A DNA stretch of 43,561 nucleotides from Candidatus Woesearchaeota archaeon (GTDB lineage: Archaea > Nanobdellota > Nanobdellia > Woesearchaeales > WJKR01): NCBI GenBank assembly GCA_016927245.1, contig JAFGNA010000002.1, positions 1 to 43,561 on the forward strand. Direction: 5' to 3'. Position numbers and translations under genes: made by a program. The notes beneath the pieces were generated by a model. It was not told the origin of the DNA. It saw only the letters and a program-made list of their open reading frames with translations, and searched no databases. Positions 4,452 to 14,974 of the stretch are shown here, one piece after another; the first letter of the stretch is position 1; each line of letters starts with the position of its first letter.

Positions 4452-5045
4452 TCAGCCGATCGTGATGATCCTGCCTAGCGGTCCGAGGTTGTAACAAGCG
4501 GTGTTCCCTATCTCGTCCTCTGCGCCTTCCGCCTCGTGGATGTGGCCTGACACGGCGTACAGGGGTTTGAGTAGCTTGATGGCTTGGTTCACGCTCCTGT
4601 TCCCGACGTGCTTGCCGTGGATGCGGTCCAGCTTCGTCCCGTCTGGCGGTGCGTGCGTGACGAGCACGGTGGGTAGGGCTGCGTGCGCGCTCTTCGCCCA
4701 TTCCTTCACCTGCTCCTCCAACCCCTTGTCGTGGCTGCCGAACCCGCCGCCGCCCCAGAGCAGGAGCCGCACGCCTTTTTGCACGACCTCCTCGCCGTGC
4801 ACGAACGAGAGCCGGCGATACCGCTTGCACGCCTCCCTGAGCGTCCTTGCCTCCTCGTGGTTGCCATGGATGAGGAGCACGGGCTTCCGCCACTTGCTGA
4901 ATTCGTTGAGCGTCTTGTCCAGGTCGAACTCGAACACAGTGGGGTCTCCTGCGCACACGATGAGATCAGCGTTTCTCGCCCGCTCACCCATCTGAGGCAG
5001 GAGCTCGTAGCGGTTGTGGAAGTCCGAGAAGCAGTAGATGTTCAT
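4452..5045 (-). CDS. Calcineurin-like metallophosphoesterase
   Basis: All motifs of the two-metal phosphoesterase fold are present: SDFH with Asp8 and His10, AGDP with Asp34, HGNHEE with Asn62 and His63, VTHAPPDG with a metal-binding His, and SGHIHEA near the C-terminus. The 197-residue length matches the small single-domain YfcE/MJ0936-like phosphodiesterase group; the substrate is unknown. Its ATG overlaps the stop of the M49 peptidase gene by four bases (ATGA), so the two are translationally coupled and share the operon led by the double-Lrp regulator. Confidence 0.92.
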   Translation of the reverse strand: MNIYCFSDFHNRYELLPQMGERARNADLIVCAGDPTVFEFDLDKTLNEFSKWRKPVLLIHGNHEEARTLREACKRYRRLSFVHGEEVVQKGVRLLLWGGGGFGSHDKGLEEQVKEWAKSAHAALPTVLVTHAPPDGTKLDRIHGKHVGNRSVNQAIKLLKPLYAVSGHIHEAEGAEDEIGNTACYNLGPLGRIITIG

Positions 5046-6574
5046 TTTCCGAGCGGGGTTATTGGCTTGATATCGATGGGGATGTCGCTCATGCCGTCGA
5101 GGACCTCCTTGACGTGCCCTGGCATGATGTTATACTTCTTGAGCAGCGCCTCAGCACCGGCCCGGTCGCCCTCGTCCTCGATGAGGAGTAGTCGCTTGAC
5201 GAGCAGGAGCAATGATTCCTTGGCTTGATCGCGGTCGATCACTAATCTTCTTCCTTCCAGCCTGGCCGCTCCTTGCTCTTCGAGCCAATTGTACGCGAGC
5301 ATGTTCGCGCCGGCGTGCGCCTCGCCTAGCCCGAAGCGGATGCTGCGGAAGATTCCCGCGACGTACGTGACCAGGACTTCCTCGGCCATCCTTTTCTCCA
5401 GGACGCCGCTCTCGGCGAGGACGGATGCGTTGTGGACGCCCAAGAGGTCGGCCTTTGCCTCTTCGATGAACGGATAGCTTTCTTTGAGCTCCTTGTTCAC
5501 CGTGGTCTCCCGGCCGTCCTTCTTGATGATGCCTGGGCCGATGCCGTGGCTGATCTCGTGCAGGAGGATGTGGAGGAAGTACGCGCCGAACGAGCAATGC
5601 TTCCTGGTCTCGTCGTCGAGGAGCCGTTGGGTGATGGGTTGCCAGCACGTGGCGAACTTCGCCTCGGCTACGTTCTTGAGCAGGACCTTCTTGCTCCCTT
5701 TCTCTTGGCGCACGCGCTCGTCGTTGGGCAGGTTGAACGCGGTGAAGTGGATGCCTGCACGGCCGTCCCCTGCGCTGTGCAGGAGGTTGACGATCCTGAT
5801 AGGCGCTCGCCGCCCGCTACGGTTCGCTCGGTGCTCGTCAGGCAGCGGCAGTCGTTCTTCCAGGAGCTGCACGTGCTCTTCGAGGTGGCGTAGCTCGGCC
5901 GTTGCCTCTTCGTCCACGAGGCCGATGAAGGATTCGTATGCTGCCTTGATGCCGTTGAGCCGGTCCTCGTACACCTCGTACGGACCGATGGTGACCTCTA
6001 ATGAGGAGTCGAGGTCCAGCCAGGCCACGTCGCTCTCGTAGTAGTCGTCCGTGAGGAGCGCTTGTGCGCGCAGTTCGAGGAAGCGCCGCAGCGACTCGTT
6101 GTCCGCGTGTTTTGCCGCTTGCTGGAGGTGCTCTGCCGCCTTCGCGAGGAGGTCTGCGTAGTGGTCGTGGTAGGGAATCGCGATGAGCCTGTCTTCTTTT
6201 CGCCTGATGATGGTGTAGTGGTTGGTGAAGGATTCGCGGTCTTCGGGGTGTCGTCGGAGCCAGCAGTCCCATTCTTGCTTGGTGAGGTCGTCGGGGTAGA
6301 ACGCGGCTCCTTTCGGCTTCTCATGCCCGGTGATGAACGGCTTGTCGTGCTCGGTGCGGTCGAACGGGCCGTAGTGCGTGCGGAATCGCTCTAGTGATGC
6401 GTGGTCGCCCTTCTCTTTGAGGCTTGCGAGCACCGCTTCGTTCTTGCTGTACGCCTGTCGGAGGAAGAGCTGTCCCATGATGTCAGATGCGGCGGTGAGG
6501 TGGCGGAGGAGCTCGCGGTCCAGTCGCTCCGTGCCTGCCGGGGCGGTGAGTCTTGTGGGTTGCAGTCGTTCCAT
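5042..6574 (-). CDS. M49 family metallopeptidase (DPP III-like)
   Basis: The zinc site is HEISH at residues 339-343 together with EEAKAD at 371-376, whose second Glu would be the third ligand. The surrounding GIGP and VNKELKE match the DPP III-like branch best known from Nudix-fused plant and bacterial proteins, where the zinc motif is HEXXH, not the HEXXGH of classic DPP III. At 510 residues it is a complete catalytic unit without a Nudix domain. Family members remove dipeptides from peptide N-termini, so a cytosolic role in peptide turnover is likely. The ATG at 6574 is chosen because the upstream 169 codons of open frame lie inside the Lrp gene and look like out-of-frame Arg/His-rich sequence. 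It lies 26 bases after the Lrp gene and overlaps the phosphoesterase gene. Confidence 0.9.
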   Translation of the reverse strand: MERLQPTRLTAPAGTERLDRELLRHLTAASDIMGQLFLRQAYSKNEAVLASLKEKGDHASLERFRTHYGPFDRTEHDKPFITGHEKPKGAAFYPDDLTKQEWDCWLRRHPEDRESFTNHYTIIRRKEDRLIAIPYHDHYADLLAKAAEHLQQAAKHADNESLRRFLELRAQALLTDDYYESDVAWLDLDSSLEVTIGPYEVYEDRLNGIKAAYESFIGLVDEEATAELRHLEEHVQLLEERLPLPDEHRANRSGRRAPIRIVNLLHSAGDGRAGIHFTAFNLPNDERVRQEKGSKKVLLKNVAEAKFATCWQPITQRLLDDETRKHCSFGAYFLHILLHEISHGIGPGIIKKDGRETTVNKELKESYPFIEEAKADLLGVHNASVLAESGVLEKRMAEEVLVTYVAGIFRSIRFGLGEAHAGANMLAYNWLEEQGAARLEGRRLVIDRDQAKESLLLLVKRLLLIEDEGDRAGAEALLKKYNIMPGHVKEVLDGMSDIPIDIKPITPLGK

Positions 6575-6600: not shown

Positions 6601-7566
6601 TTAAGCTTTCCCGTTCTCGTTGCGCGGGACGAAGTCGTACTTGGTGATGGCGTCCGATATGAGTGTGCGGTAGTTCTTGACCGTGAATGCTTTCCTGAGG
6701 TCGTTGATGACGTGCCGTTCCTTGCCCATTCTTTCTGTGGTGATGAAGAGGTCGTACGGGCCTATGATCTTGGTCACTGTGATGATGTTCTTGTGTTGCT
6801 TGCAGAACTCTAGGAATCTGTACTCTTCCACCTCGTCCTCGAAGGAGAGGGTGATGAAGATGTGCTCTCGGGTGATTTCTAGCTTCTCGTGGTCGAGGTA
6901 TGCGGTGTAGCCTCTGATGATCTTCTTCCGCTCGAGCCATTTCTTGGTGGCGGTCACGGTCTTCGCGTCGATCTTGGTCTTCTTCGCGATGCTGGTCATG
7001 GCTGCTCGGGGGTCGTTGATGAGTGCTTGGAGCACTGCTCGCTGCTTGTCGTTCATGGCGATGATGTCCCGGTCCCCGCACGTGATGGTTTCCTTGATGT
7101 CGAAGTGCCGCTTGTGCAGGTAGTTCTTGGTGTAGTGGTGCTTTACGATGACGACGTGCGCTTCCGCTACGCCCATGGCGTCCTTGAACGAGTACAGGAA
7201 TGACTTGTACTGCTTGTTGAAGTAGGAGAGGTTCGGGACGCAGTACTCTACCATGAGGTCTGCTCCTTGGCTGACTTCCTCTACGCGGACGACGTCAGGG
7301 TCTTGTTTCAGCGCTCGCTTGACCGCCGCGGTTTTCTGGTGGTCGAAGTCGTGGTAGTGGAGGAGGAGCAGCGCGTTGACTAGCCCGTGCTTCGCTGGGT
7401 CCGCGATGGTTTGGTAGTTCAGGATGGTCTTGTCCTTCTCTAGCTTCTGGAGGGTGTAGCTCGCTGTCTGCTGGCTTATATCGAGGAGTCGGGCGAGTTG
7501 CTTGGTCGTGATGCGGCTGTCGTTCAGGAGGTGGAACAAGAATCTACGCAATTTATTGGGGTCCAT
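6601..7566 (-). CDS. Double Lrp/AsnC-type transcriptional regulator
   Basis: The 321-residue protein is two Lrp-like units in one chain. The first has a helix-turn-helix at about residues 5-52 (TTKQLARLLDISQQTASYTL) and a RAM-like ligand domain to about 155. The second has a helix-turn-helix at about 172-218 and another RAM-like half to the end. Single Lrp proteins are about 150 residues, so this looks like a fused pseudo-dimer. It is the first gene of an operon with the M49 peptidase and the phosphoesterase, which suggests it senses amino acids or peptides and controls their turnover; that is inference. The ATG at 7566 is about 21-30 bases after a TATA box. Confidence 0.85.
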   Translation of the reverse strand: MDPNKLRRFLFHLLNDSRITTKQLARLLDISQQTASYTLQKLEKDKTILNYQTIADPAKHGLVNALLLLHYHDFDHQKTAAVKRALKQDPDVVRVEEVSQGADLMVEYCVPNLSYFNKQYKSFLYSFKDAMGVAEAHVVIVKHHYTKNYLHKRHFDIKETITCGDRDIIAMNDKQRAVLQALINDPRAAMTSIAKKTKIDAKTVTATKKWLERKKIIRGYTAYLDHEKLEITREHIFITLSFEDEVEEYRFLEFCKQHKNIITVTKIIGPYDLFITTERMGKERHVINDLRKAFTVKNYRTLISDAITKYDFVPRNENGKA

Positions 7567-7638: not shown

Positions 7639-7675
7639 CTGAACGGCTCGCTATAATCAGGGTTCGGTGAAGCGC

Positions 7676-8842
7676 ATGAAAGACATCACGGTGGGCATGG
7701 AACTGGAGCTGCTCGTGCTCGATGAGCACTACAGGCCGGCCAACGAGGCTGACCGCCTGCTCGCGCACGGCCTCCCCGGCGTCATCCCTGAGTGCAGCAA
7801 GGCCATGATAGAAGTGAACACTATCCCTGGGGACATCTTCGCGGTCCGTGACGATCTCTACGCCAAGCTGCGCGCCCTTGCCAGCGTGGCAGAGCAGGAG
7901 AACCTCCGCGTGCTCCCCCTAGACATGGCCTACGGCGACTTCACGCCGGTGCTGCGCAGCGGCCCTCGCTATGAGGCCAAGGCAAGACTGCTCGGCGACA
8001 AGTTCTCTCGATGCGGCGGCATCGTTGGCCAGCACACGCACTTCGCGCTGCTGCCTGACGATGACGATTGCGTCCGCCAGGTGAACTTCCTCATAGCAGC
8101 AGACCCTGTCGGCATCGCGACGATGGGTGCGAGCCCCCGCAAGGGCGTGTGGAACGCCCGCTTGCTGACCTATCGCAACGAGGTGTACGGCGAGTTCGCC
8201 TACCAGAGCGGCCTGCAGCCATTGAAGAGGAGCTTTGCTTCCTACCTGCACGAGCTCGAGGAGGAATTCGTCCGTTTCCAGTCTTTGGCCGCCGAGCGGG
8301 CGGTGAGCATCGACGGCATTATGGACAGCTACAACTCGATAGCGGGTCCTGTCCGCCTGACGAGGCACGGCACGGTCGAGACGAGGACTGCCGGCGCGAA
8401 CCCTGACATAGCCAGGTCTATCGGCTATTCTGCCTTGCTGCTAGGCGGTATGCGCCGCATCGTGGCCGAAGGCGTTGCTGGGGAGGAGCGGCTACTATAC
8501 GCGCTGACCGGCACGGAGAGTCATGAGGAGCAGTACGCGTATCTTTCCCGGTTGAGCGAGCAGGCGTTGCGGCTCGGCACGCACGACCCTGAGGTGTCCC
8601 TTTATGTTGATTCGTTCACGGCGTACTGCGCTGGTGGCTTGTCGGCCGATGAGCGCTTGTTGGCGGAGGCGTACCTGTGCCCTGAGGACGAGTCCCCTGG
8701 TGCTGTGCTGCGGCGTTGCGTCGATGCCGCTGGTGGCGTCGTGGATGATGCGTTGGCAAGGACGCTGCACCGCGTGATGGATGCTCATTATTTCCGGCCC
8801 TCGCTGCGAGCGCATCCTGTTATGTGCGAGGTGGTCCGCTGA
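7676..8842 (+). CDS. Glutamate-cysteine ligase of the GCS2 family
   Basis: The N-terminus has the GMELE glutamate/metal motif (residues 7-11). GQHTHFALL, GASPRKGVWNAR and GTVETRTAG follow in the order expected for the GCS2 (PF04107) family, in which EgtA, YbdK-like enzymes and plant-type glutamate-cysteine ligases join the gamma-carboxyl of glutamate to an amine. The length of 388 residues is normal. The start was set at ATG 7676 because GGTGA lies just upstream; GTG at 7667 would add three residues. The stop overlaps the next start by one base (TGATG), so it is coupled to a GshB-like ligase and probably provides its gamma-glutamyl-cysteine substrate. The exact amine accepted is inferred from this pairing. 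Confidence 0.85.
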   Translation: MKDITVGMELELLVLDEHYRPANEADRLLAHGLPGVIPECSKAMIEVNTIPGDIFAVRDDLYAKLRALASVAEQENLRVLPLDMAYGDFTPVLRSGPRYEAKARLLGDKFSRCGGIVGQHTHFALLPDDDDCVRQVNFLIAADPVGIATMGASPRKGVWNARLLTYRNEVYGEFAYQSGLQPLKRSFASYLHELEEEFVRFQSLAAERAVSIDGIMDSYNSIAGPVRLTRHGTVETRTAGANPDIARSIGYSALLLGGMRRIVAEGVAGEERLLYALTGTESHEEQYAYLSRLSEQALRLGTHDPEVSLYVDSFTAYCAGGLSADERLLAEAYLCPEDESPGAVLRRCVDAAGGVVDDALARTLHRVMDAHYFRPSLRAHPVMCEVVR

Positions 8843-9687
8843 TGCGTTTCGGGCTCGTGGCCCGCAAGAGCCTGGAGGGCCTCATGGCCGAGCAGGACAA
8901 GGACTACGATGTCTACCAGTACCTTCATGACTGCGGCGATGCCGTGACGAGCGTGGTGCCTGGCGGGCCTCTGCTCTCCCCGCAGGACTATGATGCCTTG
9001 TTCTTCATCTATTACCCGTTCACGCCGGCGGTCGCCGAGTCGCAGCGGTATCTTGAGGGGGTTGTTCCTGTGGTCAACGCCCCTTCAGGGGTGCTGCGTA
9101 CCTCTGAGAAGACTTATGAGCTCGAGGTCTTCCCGCACTACCTCCCTGATTCCTTGCTGCTTACCCCTGAGGCTGATGTTGAGGGCTTCCTCTTCTCTTA
9201 TGATTCGACGATTCTCAAACCGGTGAATGGCACTGGGGGGAAGGGTATTGAGCTGCTGGACCGCTCTGCCTTGGCCGAGCAGGGCGAACGCCTCTTTGGC
9301 TTGGCCCAGGAGCGTCCTGGCAAGTACCTCTTGCAGGAGTTCATCCCGAATAGGGGGGACAAGCGCGTCATCTGCTATGATGGTTGCGTGCTCGGCCATC
9401 TGGGAAGGTATAATCCTCATAAGTACGTGAACAATATCAGTGCTGGTGGTGGCTATGTCGATCTCCCTCTCCTGCCTGCCGAGGTGCGGATGTGTGAGGA
9501 CATCGCCGGCACGTTGCGCGCGGAGGGCGTGCCTTTCATCGGCGTCGATGTCATTGATGGGCGGCTCATAGAGGTCAACACGGCCTCTCCTGGGGGTCTC
9601 CGCGTGATTGCGCCGTACGGCACGTCTGCGCACCCGTTCGAGACCTTCCGTGCCCTCACGCATGATCTTGCTCGGCGTGGCTTGTGA
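8842..9687 (+). CDS. GshB-like glutathione synthase (ATP-grasp ligase)
   Basis: This is an ATP-grasp ligase of 281 residues resembling prokaryotic glutathione synthase. The signatures are the glycine-rich loop ILKPVNGTGGKGI (about 132-144), QEFIPNRGDKRVI, a GHLGR strand, SAGGG, and the metal-binding FIGVDVIDG followed by EVNTASPGG. In bacteria this enzyme adds glycine to gamma-glutamylcysteine. The N-terminal pre-ATP-grasp domain is present but shorter than in E. coli GshB (316 residues). Its ATG overlaps the stop of the GCS2 gene, so the two form a closed two-gene cassette. The final product could be glutathione or an analogue with a different terminal residue. Confidence 0.88.
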   Translation: MRFGLVARKSLEGLMAEQDKDYDVYQYLHDCGDAVTSVVPGGPLLSPQDYDALFFIYYPFTPAVAESQRYLEGVVPVVNAPSGVLRTSEKTYELEVFPHYLPDSLLLTPEADVEGFLFSYDSTILKPVNGTGGKGIELLDRSALAEQGERLFGLAQERPGKYLLQEFIPNRGDKRVICYDGCVLGHLGRYNPHKYVNNISAGGGYVDLPLLPAEVRMCEDIAGTLRAEGVPFIGVDVIDGRLIEVNTASPGGLRVIAPYGTSAHPFETFRALTHDLARRGL

Positions 9688-9793: not shown

Positions 9794-10213
9794 ATGGTTA
9801 TCCTGTTCGACCAATTCAACATGCCGGAGAGCATCTTCGAGATCATCTTCGCCACCAAGCAACAGGTCATCGTCGCGAAGCTGCTCCTCGAGCAGATGAA
9901 GATGAAAGACGGCGAGATAGGGAAGACAGAGATGAGCATGTTCGCCACCGCCCTGCACGAAGGCACCCTCGTCGAGACCAGCGACGCCAAAAGCCCCGTG
10001 GCCAGGAAGCAACAACTCAAGATTAGTTACAACAAGCGGCAGTTCTACGACCGCATCCTCACCCCCATGAAGACCATGGGCCTCATCGACTACGACCTGT
10101 ACAAAAAAACGTACAAGATATCAGAGAAGTTCAACAAGAACATGATGAAGATAGGCCTGATGTGGCTCCAAGAACTCAGAAGGCCCCCCAAGCAGTTCAT
10201 CCTGAAATCATGA
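9794..10213 (+). CDS. Small protein, possible winged-helix DNA-binding
   Basis: The protein has 139 residues, is lysine-rich and has no membrane segment. The segment from about residue 75 to 120 (YNKRQFYDRILTPMKTMGLI, then a YKKTYKIS hairpin) has the look of a recognition helix followed by a wing, so a winged-helix fold is a reasonable guess. I do not recognise a family. It has its own TATA box and is followed by a stem-loop and a T-run. It ends convergent to the pilus operon, so it may regulate locally, but nothing proves this. Confidence 0.7.
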   Translation: MVILFDQFNMPESIFEIIFATKQQVIVAKLLLEQMKMKDGEIGKTEMSMFATALHEGTLVETSDAKSPVARKQQLKISYNKRQFYDRILTPMKTMGLIDYDLYKKTYKISEKFNKNMMKIGLMWLQELRRPPKQFILKS

Positions 10214-10331: not shown

Positions 10332-11363
10332 TCAGAATTGCACGAAGTTCCCGAACACCCCGGTCAACAAACGGCTCGCCAGGATGAACACGATGAGCGC
10401 GACGGTGACGAACAACGGCACGTAACGCAAGCCGCCCTTGATGTTCCCCTTCTCGATGATGCTGATGATGAACGCCGAGGAGACGCTGATAGTCGTGATG
10501 GCCATCATCGAGAAATTCCTGAACAGCTGGGGATCGAGCGAGATCTCATTAATGGTGATGGGCAGCGCCACCTGGCTAGAGTTCCCCAAACTGCCACCGA
10601 TCTTGGCAGCGAAGCCGATGATGACCTGCAAGAGCTGGCCCGACAAGGCGAACAGCACCGGCGAGATGAACAAGACGATGGCCCCGATGAAAATCATGAA
10701 CGTGACCGTCGACGCGGCCATCTCCGCCTTCAACAGCCTCGTCTTGCGCAGGTTCTCGATGACCTTGTCGATGACCTCAACGATGGCGCCGCCGCTCTCA
10801 ATCTCGCCGATGATGAGGTTAATGCTCCTGCGCAGATTAGGAGAGTCATACTTCATACTGAACTCGATCAACGCCTCTGACAAGTCGTTGCCCGTCATCA
10901 CCTTCTTCGACACCAAACCAACCTCCTTCGCCAAGATGCCGAAGTCAGGCTTGATGCTCATCCACAACGATTTCTCGAACGACAAGCCCCCCTTAAGATT
11001 AGTGGAGACCAAGGTCAAGTAGTCGACCAGCTTGTCCTCGAGGTCCCTGGTGCGGTTGTAAATCTTAATGTTCAAGTAGAAATAGATGAACAGGATGATG
11101 ATGCCGCTCAGCACGAGCGCGACGAGAAGGACGTAGAAGAAAGCGGTGAAGCCCACCACCAACAAACCCCTATCAGCGATCTCCTTATGCAAGAAGGCGA
11201 AGTAGGTCACGATGGTGAAGAACACCGCCGAGAAGAACAAGCCTCCGAAGAACTTGTACGGCACGTCATCTATGCCTGCCTTCAGCAGGTAGTTACGCAG
11301 GTTCGGCCTGAACCGCTTCGGCACGAACGCCTGCCCGATCTCCGCGAGGAACTCGAAAGCCAT
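10332..11363 (-). CDS. TadC/FlaJ-like pilus platform membrane protein, second copy
   Basis: The protein is an archaeal GspF/TadC/FlaJ-family inner-membrane platform protein of about 343 residues. Hydrophobic segments lie near residues 43-64, 71-102, 226-256 and in the last 40. The cytoplasmic part carries the T2SSF signature (LVSTNLKGGLSFEKSL, then GNDLSEAL). It would couple the ATPase to pilin assembly. The ATG at 11363 is preceded by GGAGA, and the TTG two codons upstream is less likely. It is the last gene of the operon and lies 11 bases after the first TadC-like gene. The two proteins together replace the single larger FlaJ of archaella. Confidence 0.88.
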   Translation of the reverse strand: MAFEFLAEIGQAFVPKRFRPNLRNYLLKAGIDDVPYKFFGGLFFSAVFFTIVTYFAFLHKEIADRGLLVVGFTAFFYVLLVALVLSGIIILFIYFYLNIKIYNRTRDLEDKLVDYLTLVSTNLKGGLSFEKSLWMSIKPDFGILAKEVGLVSKKVMTGNDLSEALIEFSMKYDSPNLRRSINLIIGEIESGGAIVEVIDKVIENLRKTRLLKAEMAASTVTFMIFIGAIVLFISPVLFALSGQLLQVIIGFAAKIGGSLGNSSQVALPITINEISLDPQLFRNFSMMAITTISVSSAFIISIIEKGNIKGGLRYVPLFVTVALIVFILASRLLTGVFGNFVQF

Positions 11364-11374
11364 TCTCAAGTCTC

Positions 11375-12184
11375 CTATATGTTCACGTTCGGCCTGATCG
11401 ACTTGAACGTGGTGAGGAAGATGAACTGGATGAACATCAAGCCAAGGATGATGAGCATGAAATCGACCCCGCTAAGGGTGATGTTGATGAGGCTGATGAT
11501 GACCACGATCATGGTCATGCCCAGCGACGGCAACACGACAGCGATGAGCATGAAGAACATGGTCACGCTGCTCAGCTTCTTGCCATAGCGCTGGATCTCG
11601 ATGAGCTGCTCCTCGGCGATCTCATCGAGGATGGACTCGAGAAAGTTGGTCACATCAGTGCCTATCTTCAGCGCGTTCGTAATCTGGAAGAGGATCTTCT
11701 TCAGCTTCTTCGACGGGCAGTTCGTCGTGGCCTTCTCCAAGGCGTCCTCAAGCGAGGTGCCGAGGTCGATGTCCTTGATGATCTCCTTGAAGTACTCGTT
11801 GCTGATGCCGTAGCTCTTCGTCGCGTCCTCGATGGCGTTGATCAAAGGACGGCCGCTGTTCAGCTTGACCAAGAGGAAACGGCCCGCGAACAACACGTCC
11901 TTGTCGATGATCCCAGCCCGCTTGGAGATCTTCGCGTCCACCTGGCGCATCTGCAAGCGGAACATGAGGGCGTACGTGACGACGCCGATTATCGGCACGA
12001 GGAAGAGGTTGCCGCCGTTCTTGTCAATGAGGAAGAACGACCCGACCAGGAGCAGGAAGCCCATCAACAAGGAGTTCTTGAACTTCTCCTTAACATACAC
12101 CCTCGGCTCCACGTCCATGCCGGCCATGTAGAGCTTGCGCTTCAGGTCGGGGTGGCGGCTGGTGATATTGTTGATGATGGACAT
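11375..12184 (-). CDS. TadC/FlaJ-like pilus platform membrane protein, first copy
   Basis: The 269-residue protein belongs to the same T2SSF/TadC family as the next gene. Two N-terminal hydrophobic segments (about 35-52 and 57-73) are followed by a cytoplasmic domain with FAGRFLLVKLNSGRPLINAI and GTSLEDALEKA, and by two C-terminal membrane segments (about 206-227 and 233-258). It starts four bases after the ATPase stop, with GAGAGG directly upstream, so the genes are coupled. With the following gene it probably forms a heteromeric platform for a type IV pilus-like machine. Confidence 0.87.
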   Translation of the reverse strand: MSIINNITSRHPDLKRKLYMAGMDVEPRVYVKEKFKNSLLMGFLLLVGSFFLIDKNGGNLFLVPIIGVVTYALMFRLQMRQVDAKISKRAGIIDKDVLFAGRFLLVKLNSGRPLINAIEDATKSYGISNEYFKEIIKDIDLGTSLEDALEKATTNCPSKKLKKILFQITNALKIGTDVTNFLESILDEIAEEQLIEIQRYGKKLSSVTMFFMLIAVVLPSLGMTMIVVIISLINITLSGVDFMLIILGLMFIQFIFLTTFKSIRPNVNI

Positions 12185-12188
12185 CCTC

Positions 12189-13682
12189 TCACGCTACCTT
12201 CTTCGTCTCCTTAGCCATGTCGAGCACGCCCAAATAATACTTAGACATGGTCTGGCCGATGCTGTCGATGCTCTCAATGCCCTGCTGCATCATCCACTTC
12301 AGGATGCGTATCTTCTCCTGGAGGTCGCGGTCGATGTCCTTCCGGTCCATCCCCGTGTACAGCTCCAGGCGCTTCAGCACGGTATGGGACTCCTTGACCT
12401 TGACGAGCAAGTCTTGCTTGGCGTCGAGCTGCATGATGACGCTGGCGTCGCCATTAGGGAGTATCTCCGCGACCTGCAGCGTCCGTCGCTTCCCTGTCCT
12501 CCTGTTCCTGTTCTGCACGATGACCAGCGACAAAGAGGAAATCATCGGCTTCGGGATATCGATGGGCGGGTTGGTGAGGCGCGTGATGACCTCCTCTGCG
12601 TTGTTCGCGTGGATGGTAGCGTAGACCGAGTGGCCGGTGTGCATGGCCTCGAGCAGGACCTGCGCTTCCTTCTTCCGCCTGATCTCACCCACCAGTATCC
12701 TATCGGGCCGCATACGCAACGAGTTGACGAGGAGGTCGAGCATGCTCACCCCTCCCTTACCCTCAGGGTTGGGCAGCCTCGTCTCCATAGGCACCCAGTG
12801 CAGGTTCCTCGGCAGCGTCAGCTCTCGCGTGTCCTCGATGCTGATGATGCGCTGGTTCGCAGGGAAGAAATTGCTCACCACGTTCAGCATGCTCGTCTTC
12901 CCAGAACCAGTGCCGCCGGCGATGAGGACGCTCATCTCGTTCTGGATAGCGAGCCAGATGAACGCCGCCGCCTCCACGCTGATGGTCCCTTGCTTGATGA
13001 ACTTAGTGATGGTCCACGGGTCCTCCGCGAACTTGCGGATGGTGATGGTGTTGCCCTTGGTGCTGATCGGCGTGAGGGTGGCGTTGACGCGATCGCCAGT
13101 GGTGAGGTGCGCGTCCATCAAGGGGTTCAAGGCCGTGATCTCCTTGTTCACGTCCCGGCCAATCATCGTCGCGTAATGGCGGATGCGAGCCTCGGTGAAG
13201 ATACGGATGTTCGTCTTCAGCCATCCGTGCTTGCGGTGGTACACCCATACGGGCTCGGTATGGTTGTTAATCACTATCTCCTCAAGCGACGGGTCCTTGA
13301 GCAGAATCTCAATCTTTCCCAGGCCGAGGTTCTCCTCGATGAGGTAGTTGACGAGCATGTCGCTCGTCTTCTCGTCAGTGTTGGGGAAGTACTTCTCGAT
13401 CAGCCCGCGGATCTCCTTCTTGAACCGGTCACGCACATCCTCGACGTCGTGCTCCTGCGAGCGCTCAAGGTCGCCGAGGTCGAGGCGAGAGATGAACTCC
13501 TGCCTAATCTTCTCGAGGATGAGCTTTGTCGTGTCGCTGATGTTCGTGATGCTGACGACGTACTGGGGGACCGGCTCGTCGTCCTTCGAGGCGATGGTCA
13601 CGTCCACGATGATGTTGTTGATCTCGATGCTATACTTGTCAACGAGGTTCTTGTCCTGCGAGGGTGCTGGGTCATTCGTCAT
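12189..13682 (-). CDS. VirB11/FlaI/GspE-like secretion ATPase
   Basis: The protein is a hexameric assembly ATPase of about 497 residues. It has Walker A GGTGSGKTS, an Asp box (ISIEDTREL), a Walker B region (RILVGEIRRKKE), and a His box (HTGHSVYATIHANN). The N-terminal half contains the conserved LGKIEILLKDPSLEEIVIN segment of archaeal pilus ATPases. It would power pilin assembly by the two TadC-like proteins encoded just downstream. The start at 13682 overlaps the stop of the coiled-coil gene (ATGA). A longer frame to 13784 only adds Pro/Gly-rich sequence read out of frame from that gene. Confidence 0.95.
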   Translation of the reverse strand: MTNDPAPSQDKNLVDKYSIEINNIIVDVTIASKDDEPVPQYVVSITNISDTTKLILEKIRQEFISRLDLGDLERSQEHDVEDVRDRFKKEIRGLIEKYFPNTDEKTSDMLVNYLIEENLGLGKIEILLKDPSLEEIVINNHTEPVWVYHRKHGWLKTNIRIFTEARIRHYATMIGRDVNKEITALNPLMDAHLTTGDRVNATLTPISTKGNTITIRKFAEDPWTITKFIKQGTISVEAAAFIWLAIQNEMSVLIAGGTGSGKTSMLNVVSNFFPANQRIISIEDTRELTLPRNLHWVPMETRLPNPEGKGGVSMLDLLVNSLRMRPDRILVGEIRRKKEAQVLLEAMHTGHSVYATIHANNAEEVITRLTNPPIDIPKPMISSLSLVIVQNRNRRTGKRRTLQVAEILPNGDASVIMQLDAKQDLLVKVKESHTVLKRLELYTGMDRKDIDRDLQEKIRILKWMMQQGIESIDSIGQTMSKYYLGVLDMAKETKKVA

Positions 13683-14974
13683 GGTGCTTCTGCCTCTTCT
13701 CGGTTCTCCCCCTGCTGGAGCTGCTCCAGACGTATCAGCGCTGGGAGGTGGTGGGGGCTGATCCTCAGTATCTCCCTGAAGCACGCCTCTGCCTTCCTCG
13801 GCTCCCCTGCGTGCTGGTAGCGGAGTCCTTCCTGGTACAGTGATTCCACGCCGCCCCTAGCCCTGGTGATGGCGTCTATCCTCCTCTTCTCCTCTTCTTG
13901 CCGTCGCCTTTCCGCCGCTTCTCGCCGTCGTCGCTCTTCCTCTTCCGTCGCCGCTTCTCGCCGTCGTTCCTCCTCTTCCCAGCGTCGCTGCTCCTCCGCG
14001 TCTCGCTTCGCTCGTTCCTGCTTGAGGAACTGGATGCGATTGGTGATCGTGCTGAGGATGCTCTCCAAGCCCCGCTTCTCCTTCTCGACCTCCTTGCCGA
14101 GCTTGGCGACGAGGTGGCGCGCGTCGATGAGAAGGCTGTCAGCGGCGTGGAGGTCCTCGCCGTCCAGCGCGTGGATGAGGTCTTTCATCTTGTCCTTGGT
14201 CTGGTGGAGCTGCCGGTTGATGGACTGCTTCCGCCGCTCTTCCTTCTCCTTCGTCTCAGCATCCTTCCTGCGCTCATCATCCGCCTGCGCCCGCCGTTTC
14301 TCGGCCTCTTCCCTCTGCTTTGCCTGGAGCCGTCGCACCTGCTCGTAGGATGCCAGGAGATGGTTGTACCACTCCACCTTGCGGAACTTGTCATCCGAGG
14401 GGTAGACCGAGAATTCGTGCTTGAAGTCGTTGTAAGCCTTGGCGGCCCCTTGCACGTCCCCTTCCTCTACCGCTCGGTGCACGGCGTGCTCCGCGAACTT
14501 CATCGCCTTCTCGGCCTTTTCCCGTTGCTGCTGCGCCTGCAACGCTGCCCGTTCGAACGCCTCGGTCTCCTCCTTCCCAGGGAGGGTTGCTCCTCCTTTC
14601 GAGGGGGGAGGGGCCACGCCCTTGAGCCCGTGCTTCTCGAAGTCCTTGAGGTCATCCTCAAGGCTCATGCCGTGCTCGATGCTCTTCTTGATCTCGGCGT
14701 AGACCTCCTCGAGGATGGCGTATATCTTCTCTCGCTCATCCACCTCGTTCTCGCCGAGGCTGTTATACGCCTCTCGGAGTTCGTCGAAGAGCTTCTTGGC
14801 CTTCGACTGGTCGTTCTGCTCCAGCGCCTCCGCGGTCTCCTTAGCGTAGTCCCGGTCGACATCGAACAGGGTGAACTCCTCGCCGCGCAGCTTGCCGAGC
14901 TTCTCTCGCTGCTCGGAGCTCTTACGCTCGAGGAAGTCGATGATATCTTGCTTGAGGAACTTGCTCAATTCCAT
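13679..14974 (-). CDS. Coiled-coil protein with TPR-like C-terminus in pilus operon
   Basis: The 431-residue protein is soluble and highly charged. Helical segments at about 1-110 precede a Pro/Gly linker near 125-135 (APPPSKGGATLPG), then long Glu/Arg-rich coiled-coil at about 135-380. A tetratricopeptide-like unit near 385-420 (GLRYQHAGEPRKAEACFREI) ends the protein. The first residues MELSKFLKQDIIDFLE were chosen as the start because the further upstream frame lies inside the preceding gene and reads as Ser/Arg-rich nonsense. It sits between the winged-helix gene and the ATPase and overlaps the ATPase start by four bases. It is probably a scaffold or regulator of the pilus machine; no catalytic motif is seen. 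Confidence 0.85.
   Translation of the reverse strand: MELSKFLKQDIIDFLERKSSEQREKLGKLRGEEFTLFDVDRDYAKETAEALEQNDQSKAKKLFDELREAYNSLGENEVDEREKIYAILEEVYAEIKKSIEHGMSLEDDLKDFEKHGLKGVAPPPSKGGATLPGKEETEAFERAALQAQQQREKAEKAMKFAEHAVHRAVEEGDVQGAAKAYNDFKHEFSVYPSDDKFRKVEWYNHLLASYEQVRRLQAKQREEAEKRRAQADDERRKDAETKEKEERRKQSINRQLHQTKDKMKDLIHALDGEDLHAADSLLIDARHLVAKLGKEVEKEKRGLESILSTITNRIQFLKQERAKRDAEEQRRWEEEERRREAATEEEERRRREAAERRRQEEEKRRIDAITRARGGVESLYQEGLRYQHAGEPRKAEACFREILRISPHHLPALIRLEQLQQGENREEAEAP

Follow-up and report, generated by a model that had tools for sequence, protein, structure and literature searches.

A GCS2 and GSH-S ligase cassette in a small-genome archaeon: a probable gamma-glutamyl tripeptide pathway with an exchangeable second ligase

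E. coli YbdK is the nearest characterised relative of the first enzyme of the locus described here; its natural substrate is uncertain. EgtC, like several proteins encoded beside relatives of this enzyme, belongs to the GATase_4 class. The GCS2 superfamily is marked by a GhExE signature (PMC2588565). According to a 2020 review, the GshB family has no archaeal hits, and the only possible archaeal glutathione makers are some methanogens, with GshF-like genes (PMC7278568). Ligases of the glutathione pathway can also produce cysteine-free peptides; the yeast glutamate-cysteine ligase and glutathione synthetase, Gsh1/Gsh2, can yield gamma-Glu-Val-Gly (PMC6508711). The GATase_4 class also includes Dug3, an amidotransferase that acts on gamma-glutamyl groups when yeast breaks down glutathione (PMC6508711). 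Rhizobial plasmids carry an operon of N-formylglutamate amidohydrolase (FGase), QEGLA (DUF1704) and a glutathione synthetase-like ligase; at loci L153 and L154 the annotation of this ligase as 'glutathione synthetase' is probably too specific.

The window (the whole stretch of DNA analysed, 43,561 nucleotides) contains two adjacent ligase genes, gene 1 and gene 2 (Table 1). The best reading of this cassette is a modular gamma-Glu-X-Y tripeptide system, a variant of the GshA/GshB type; judged from sequence, the probability that it encodes a two-enzyme, non-ribosomal gamma-glutamyl tripeptide pathway is about 0.6. A full pair had been predicted to be unexpected in a small-genome archaeon, and the 2020 review agrees in reporting no archaeal GshB (PMC7278568). 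No description of an archaeal GCS2 and GSH-S pair with exchangeable second ligases was found in the literature searched, which was mainly open access.

The window encodes an archaea-specific ThrRS editing domain and a Cbf5-type pseudouridine synthase; the host is thus an archaeon, as had been proposed. Its assembly (G000) is 1.11 Mb and scored 100% complete. No archaeal 16S was found in this assembly, so the label 'DPANN' rests on the small sizes seen throughout the related genome group. GATase_4 has no match in the window genome. This genome encodes a RimK-like ATP-grasp paralogue of gene 2 on a separate contig (G000:C9 17180-18277, L128). In relatives (L084, L089, L091) this paralogue is preceded by a small protein with a DSGA/DTGA motif, retropepsin-like by eye; the small protein and the RimK-like ATP-grasp form a widespread pair in this archaeal order.

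Gene 1 and gene 2 meet at a TGATG junction. The coordinates and the junction confirm the two-gene ligase cassette with a one-base overlap that was originally predicted. Gene 1 could also start at the in-frame GTG at position 7667. The TATA-box-like motif TTTATAA occurs eight times in the window (0.54 expected), once ahead of both candidate starts; GGTGTTTATAA is also found upstream of the gene 1 homologue in the same-genus genome G110. No terminator-like site was found between the two genes, and it is plausible that they share a single promoter.

Table 1. Positions of the cassette and its neighbouring features in the window
Feature	Coordinates	Strand	Details
M49 (dipeptidyl peptidase III-like) metallopeptidase	5042..6574	-	PF03571 E 1.5e-18; start taken as ATG 6574
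Lrp/AsnC-type double regulator	6601..7566	-	Divergently transcribed from the cassette
Archaeal TATA-box-like motif TTTATAA	7632..7638	+	28-37 bases 5' of gene 1's two candidate starts
Gene 1	7676..8842	+	Divergent GCS2-fold (YbdK/GshA-like) carboxylate-amine ligase, 388 aa; ATG 7676, stop 8840-8842
Gene 2	8842..9687	+	GSH-S (GshB-like) ATP-grasp ligase, 281 aa; ATG 8842-8844, stop 9685-9687
139-aa protein without Pfam match	9794..10213	+	3' of the cassette in the window and in G035 (shared locus)

The gene pair is found adjacent in four families of one order (G000, G035, G029 and G134). Chance adjacency is ruled out by the same pairing in the three other families. In the gene 1 tree, the window sequence groups with G035 and G110 (100/99) and G029 with G134 (80/82); in the gene 2 tree, the window sequence groups with G035 (100/99) and G029 with G134 (100/98). 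The two trees are compatible, as would be expected if gene 1 and gene 2 travel together. Recurrent pairing, compatible trees and complete catalytic motifs argue for a real two-step ligase cassette. A single origin of gene 2 over all four pair loci has a p-AU of 0.30. In a profile search of 371 sampled genomes from the phylum, four have the gene 2 class and the pair; this rarity suggests that the pair is not part of core metabolism.

The M49 gene also adjoins the cassette in G035 (PF03571 E 5e-19) and is possibly a functional neighbour. It lies on the other side of the G035 cassette from the 139-aa gene, and a MATCAP/DUF1704-like gene is inserted after gene 2. A metallopeptidase is present within about two genes of the pair at all four loci: M49 in the window, M49 and MATCAP in G035 (L035 5590-6684, 8981-10540), M32 in G029 (L036 5872-7311) and a weak DUF2268-like match in G134 (L037 9510-10235). 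This pattern was noticed post hoc and may be due to chance. Next to the cassette, at 10332-13784 of the window, is an archaeal pilus-like operon (a type II/IV secretion ATPase, T2SSE, then two membrane proteins TadC/FlaJ-like by eye). A reading of the cassette as a defence system is rejected, as neither ligase has a PADLOC match.

Gene 1 was originally described as a GCS2-family glutamate-cysteine ligase. The fold is borne out and the set of catalytic residues is complete; the cysteine specificity is not established, the best score being to YbdK-type carboxylate-amine ligases (TIGR02050: E 6e-8; 32 bits, cut-off 176). The proposed search with Pfam PF04107 (GCS2) also fell short, at E 0.053 and 13.3 bits (gathering cut-off 21), and gene 1 is below every curated cut-off for GCS2 families. 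Superfamily membership is reached only at profile level, via relatives: 10 of 12 family members match PF04107, and a profile of the 12 archaeal relatives reaches 2e-12 against YbdK (1r8g) and about 1e-6 against plant glutamate-cysteine ligase. Alignment of gene 1 with E. coli YbdK by hhalign has 98% probability. The GhExE motif is present as G7-M-E9-L-E11 and the Thr-x-Glu-x-Arg motif at 233-237; E46, H120, H122, R162, R167, R227, T233, E235 and R237 all match YbdK. With this complete set of catalytic residues, gene 1 should be an active gamma-glutamyl ligase. No cysteine-specific (GshA/EgtA) model scores above its cut-off for gene 1, and just one of the 12 relatives matches the EgtA model. 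A single-sequence AlphaFold model of gene 1 has a pLDDT of 38, too low to be of use. No relatives of gene 1 were found in viral contigs.

As predicted, gene 2 matches PF02955 (GSH-S_ATP) above the cut-off (E 3.9e-27, 95 bits against 23), and both family models and tree identify it as a relative of GshB. Its best scores are to glutathione synthase models, below their equivalog cut-offs (NF003573, 108.7 against 272 bits; TIGR01380, 95 against 299), and among solved structures it is closest to E. coli GshB (1gsa; E 3e-15 as a single sequence, 5e-40 as a profile). Membership of RimK is rejected by the family models and by the tree, where a split supported at 100/99 places gene 2 with GSH-S and apart from RimK-like proteins. 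A structure model is reliable enough for use in its ATP-grasp half (mean pLDDT 70); fold searches with it return E. coli GshB first, ArgX and RimK close behind, and PsnB- and LysX/ArgX-type structures among the top matches. A scan of genome contigs with gene 2 yields MptN-like (by eye) and CPR ATP-grasps and nothing else.

The ATP-grasp positions K90, K126, D173, K174, R175, D236, E244 and N246 match those of E. coli GshB. The GSH-S_N domain (PF02951) has no match in gene 2 or elsewhere in G000, and the protein is 281 aa long compared with 316 aa for bacterial GshB; the shorter N-terminal half noted in the original prediction is therefore borne out. Loop Arg233, which Tanaka et al. reportedly found in 1992 to be critical in E. 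coli GshB, is replaced by V196; the four pair members have V/V/L/I at this position, while all five proteobacterial GshB compared keep the arginine. Loss of the arginine is not unique to them: it is also missing from a GshB-like protein in G368 and from two further ATP-grasps, one MptN-like and one from Saccharibacteria. Loop Arg241 was left out of the comparison since it varies even among true GshB. These data fit the suggestion that gene 2 could accommodate another amino acid in the last step.

The second ligase is replaced among relatives. G110, of the same genus, retains the first enzyme (39% identity) and the divergent Lrp-type regulator (66% identity); in place of gene 2 it has a circularly permuted ATP-grasp-like protein (CP_ATPgrasp_2) and a C39 peptidase-like gene. 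The first enzyme adjoins a GSH-S/GshF-like (GshF/CphA-like) ATP-grasp in G169, a Ddl-like one in G084, a GSP_synth-like one in G052 and a RimK-like one in G059. The first enzyme is constant and the second ligase variable across this archaeal order, and related species probably make related gamma-glutamyl products. Several members of the first-enzyme family adjoin GATase_4, a class-II amidotransferase resembling gamma-glutamyl hydrolases, and in one family DUF3335 C39-like and GATase_4 genes are both present; further neighbours are FGase (L051) and MATCAP/DUF1704 (L035). In G368, three genes lie together: a long-form GCS2, a GATase_4 and a GshB-like ligase that does have the GSH-S_N domain.

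Other arrangements were also observed. GCS2-like, DUF3335 C39-like peptidase and GATase_4 genes form a recurrent cluster (L039, L052, L040, L041, L053); in L039 and L052 it includes a CP-ATP-grasp/GSP_synth-like protein of 433-444 aa, the L052 copy having no Pfam match. G059 has two GCS2-like genes about 5 kb apart (L043 720-2024, 6770-7957), one of which lacks some catalytic positions (HxN for HxH, SK for SP).

The regulator family is common (180 of 236 genomes) and too widespread to be informative; only the close-orthologue subset (eight relatives, 35-66% identity) was used. These orthologues flank GCS2 genes in G000, G110, G134 and G169, GATase_4 in G053 and other ATP-grasps in G068 and G214; for two of the eight closest relatives (G112, G189) no amino-acid-ligase or GATase_4 neighbour was seen. 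The ligase and GATase_4 neighbours support a candidate role as a dedicated regulator of amino-acid ligases. At the G068 (L131 2566-3940) and G214 (L133 1-1441) loci the ATP-grasp is YheCD-like; next to it is a class-I amidotransferase-like gene (by eye) in G068 and an Asp/Glu racemase in G214. These two loci possibly represent another ligase cluster controlled by this family of regulators.

In the proposed pathway, gene 1 would form glutamate gamma-phosphate and join it to amino acid X, giving gamma-Glu-X. Gene 2 would then phosphorylate the C-terminal carboxylate of gamma-Glu-X and join amino acid Y, giving gamma-Glu-X-Y. It is plausible that X is cysteine; it is doubtful that Y is glycine, and Y need not be so. 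The Lrp-type regulator on the opposite strand probably couples expression of the cassette to an amino acid. The original prediction spoke of a glutathione-like thiol. Of the two sequence results named in advance as refuting it, one was obtained and counts against the thiol, which is not established: gene 1 scores best to the YbdK family. The other was not obtained, and this counts in favour: gene 2 is GshB-like, not RimK-like. By analogy, a thiol product is plausible since haloarchaea make gamma-glutamylcysteine.

A non-thiol gamma-glutamyl peptide or modified amino acid is quite possible as the product. The cassette would then belong to the class of uncharacterised amidoligase operons said to have been described by Iyer et al. 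in 2009. The mixed partners of the first enzyme (FGase, MATCAP/DUF1704, C39-like peptidases, GATase_4) are consistent with this, as are the rhizobial plasmid operon, considered with the DUF1704-like gene after gene 2 in G035, and gamma-Glu-Val-Gly synthesis in yeast (PMC6508711). However, the QEGLA-linked ligases form a group separate from gene 2, and the window contains neither the FGase nor the DUF1704 gene of the rhizobial operon.

A thiol tripeptide gamma-Glu-Cys-Y, with Y other than glycine, is somewhat unlikely. It would fit gene 2, in which the loop is altered and the N-terminal half shortened but the ATP-site residues are intact, and the swapped second ligases, which suggest a varying last residue; haloarchaeal gamma-glutamylcysteine offers a precedent for the first step (PMC7278568). 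On the other hand, no bis-thiol reductase or other thiol-use gene is adjacent in the window, and no result for gene 1 points directly to cysteine as its acceptor.

Plain glutathione, with gene 1 making gamma-Glu-Cys and gene 2 adding glycine, is a less likely product, and indeed an unlikely one. The gene order is that of bacteria (GCS2 then GSH-S, with gshA-gshB adjacent in bacteria such as Legionella), gene 2 scores highest to glutathione synthase models and 1gsa, and in G029 the strand of the cassette encodes, about 2 kb upstream of it, proteins that from their sequence are thioredoxin-reductase-like and thioredoxin-like (L036 11123-12434). Replacement of the second ligase by an unrelated ATP-grasp in G110 and loss of the loop arginine in all four pair members argue against it, as do the undetected PF02951 and the YbdK-type affinity of gene 1; for glutaredoxin, G000 has a marginal match and G035 none.

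Modification of a protein or ribosomal peptide tail instead of a free small molecule is very unlikely: RimK-, PsnB- and LysX/ArgX-type structures are among the top fold matches to gene 2 and the Pup ligase arose from the GCS2 fold (PMC2588565), but gene 2 sits with GSH-S, and the pair loci show no conserved ORF that would encode a small carrier or precursor.

The gamma-Glu-X-Y reading of the cassette can be extended to a DPANN family of gamma-glutamyl compounds, some perhaps thiols. Such a family would combine a conserved GCS2 ligase, swapped caps (GSH-S, GshF-like, Ddl-like, RimK-like or circularly permuted ATP-grasp), a dedicated Lrp and Dug3/EgtC-like recycling, and would amount to unrecognised archaeal glutathione analogues; this wider proposal is tentative. 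With a GCS2 and GSH-S pair conserved in minimal-genome archaea, and its second ligase swapped between close relatives, the question of which small thiols or gamma-glutamyl peptides DPANN archaea make can be put to a direct test in E. coli with just two genes.

Each of the described systems shares part of this design. Gene 1 keeps the fold, GhExE, two histidines, TxExR motif and arginines of YbdK (GCS2, 1r8g); in contrast, it is only about 19% identical, scores far under the YbdK and GCS2 cut-offs, and E. coli ybdK has no ATP-grasp neighbour. Gene 2 shares the ATP-grasp half, the catalytic residues and the GSH-S clade with bacterial GshB (PF02951 and PF02955; 1gsa), and differs in its missing PF02951, its length and its replaced loop arginine. 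The haloarchaeal gamma-glutamylcysteine system (GshA only) likewise has an archaeal GCS2-type first step; in contrast, haloarchaea have no GshB (PMC7278568, PMC7554672), and no ATP-grasp gene adjoins the plasmid-borne relatives of gene 1 in haloarchaea. The rhizobial operon combines a GshB-like ligase with a DUF1704-type gene, as does G035, whereas there is no GCS2 gene inside the plasmid operon and its ligase forms a separate clade from gene 2. The bifunctional glutathione synthase GshF/GshAB has the same GCS and ATP-grasp logic, and in G169 the first enzyme is accompanied by a GshF/CphA-like ATP-grasp; in the window, however, the two enzymes are separate proteins and the second ligase is of the GSH-S type.
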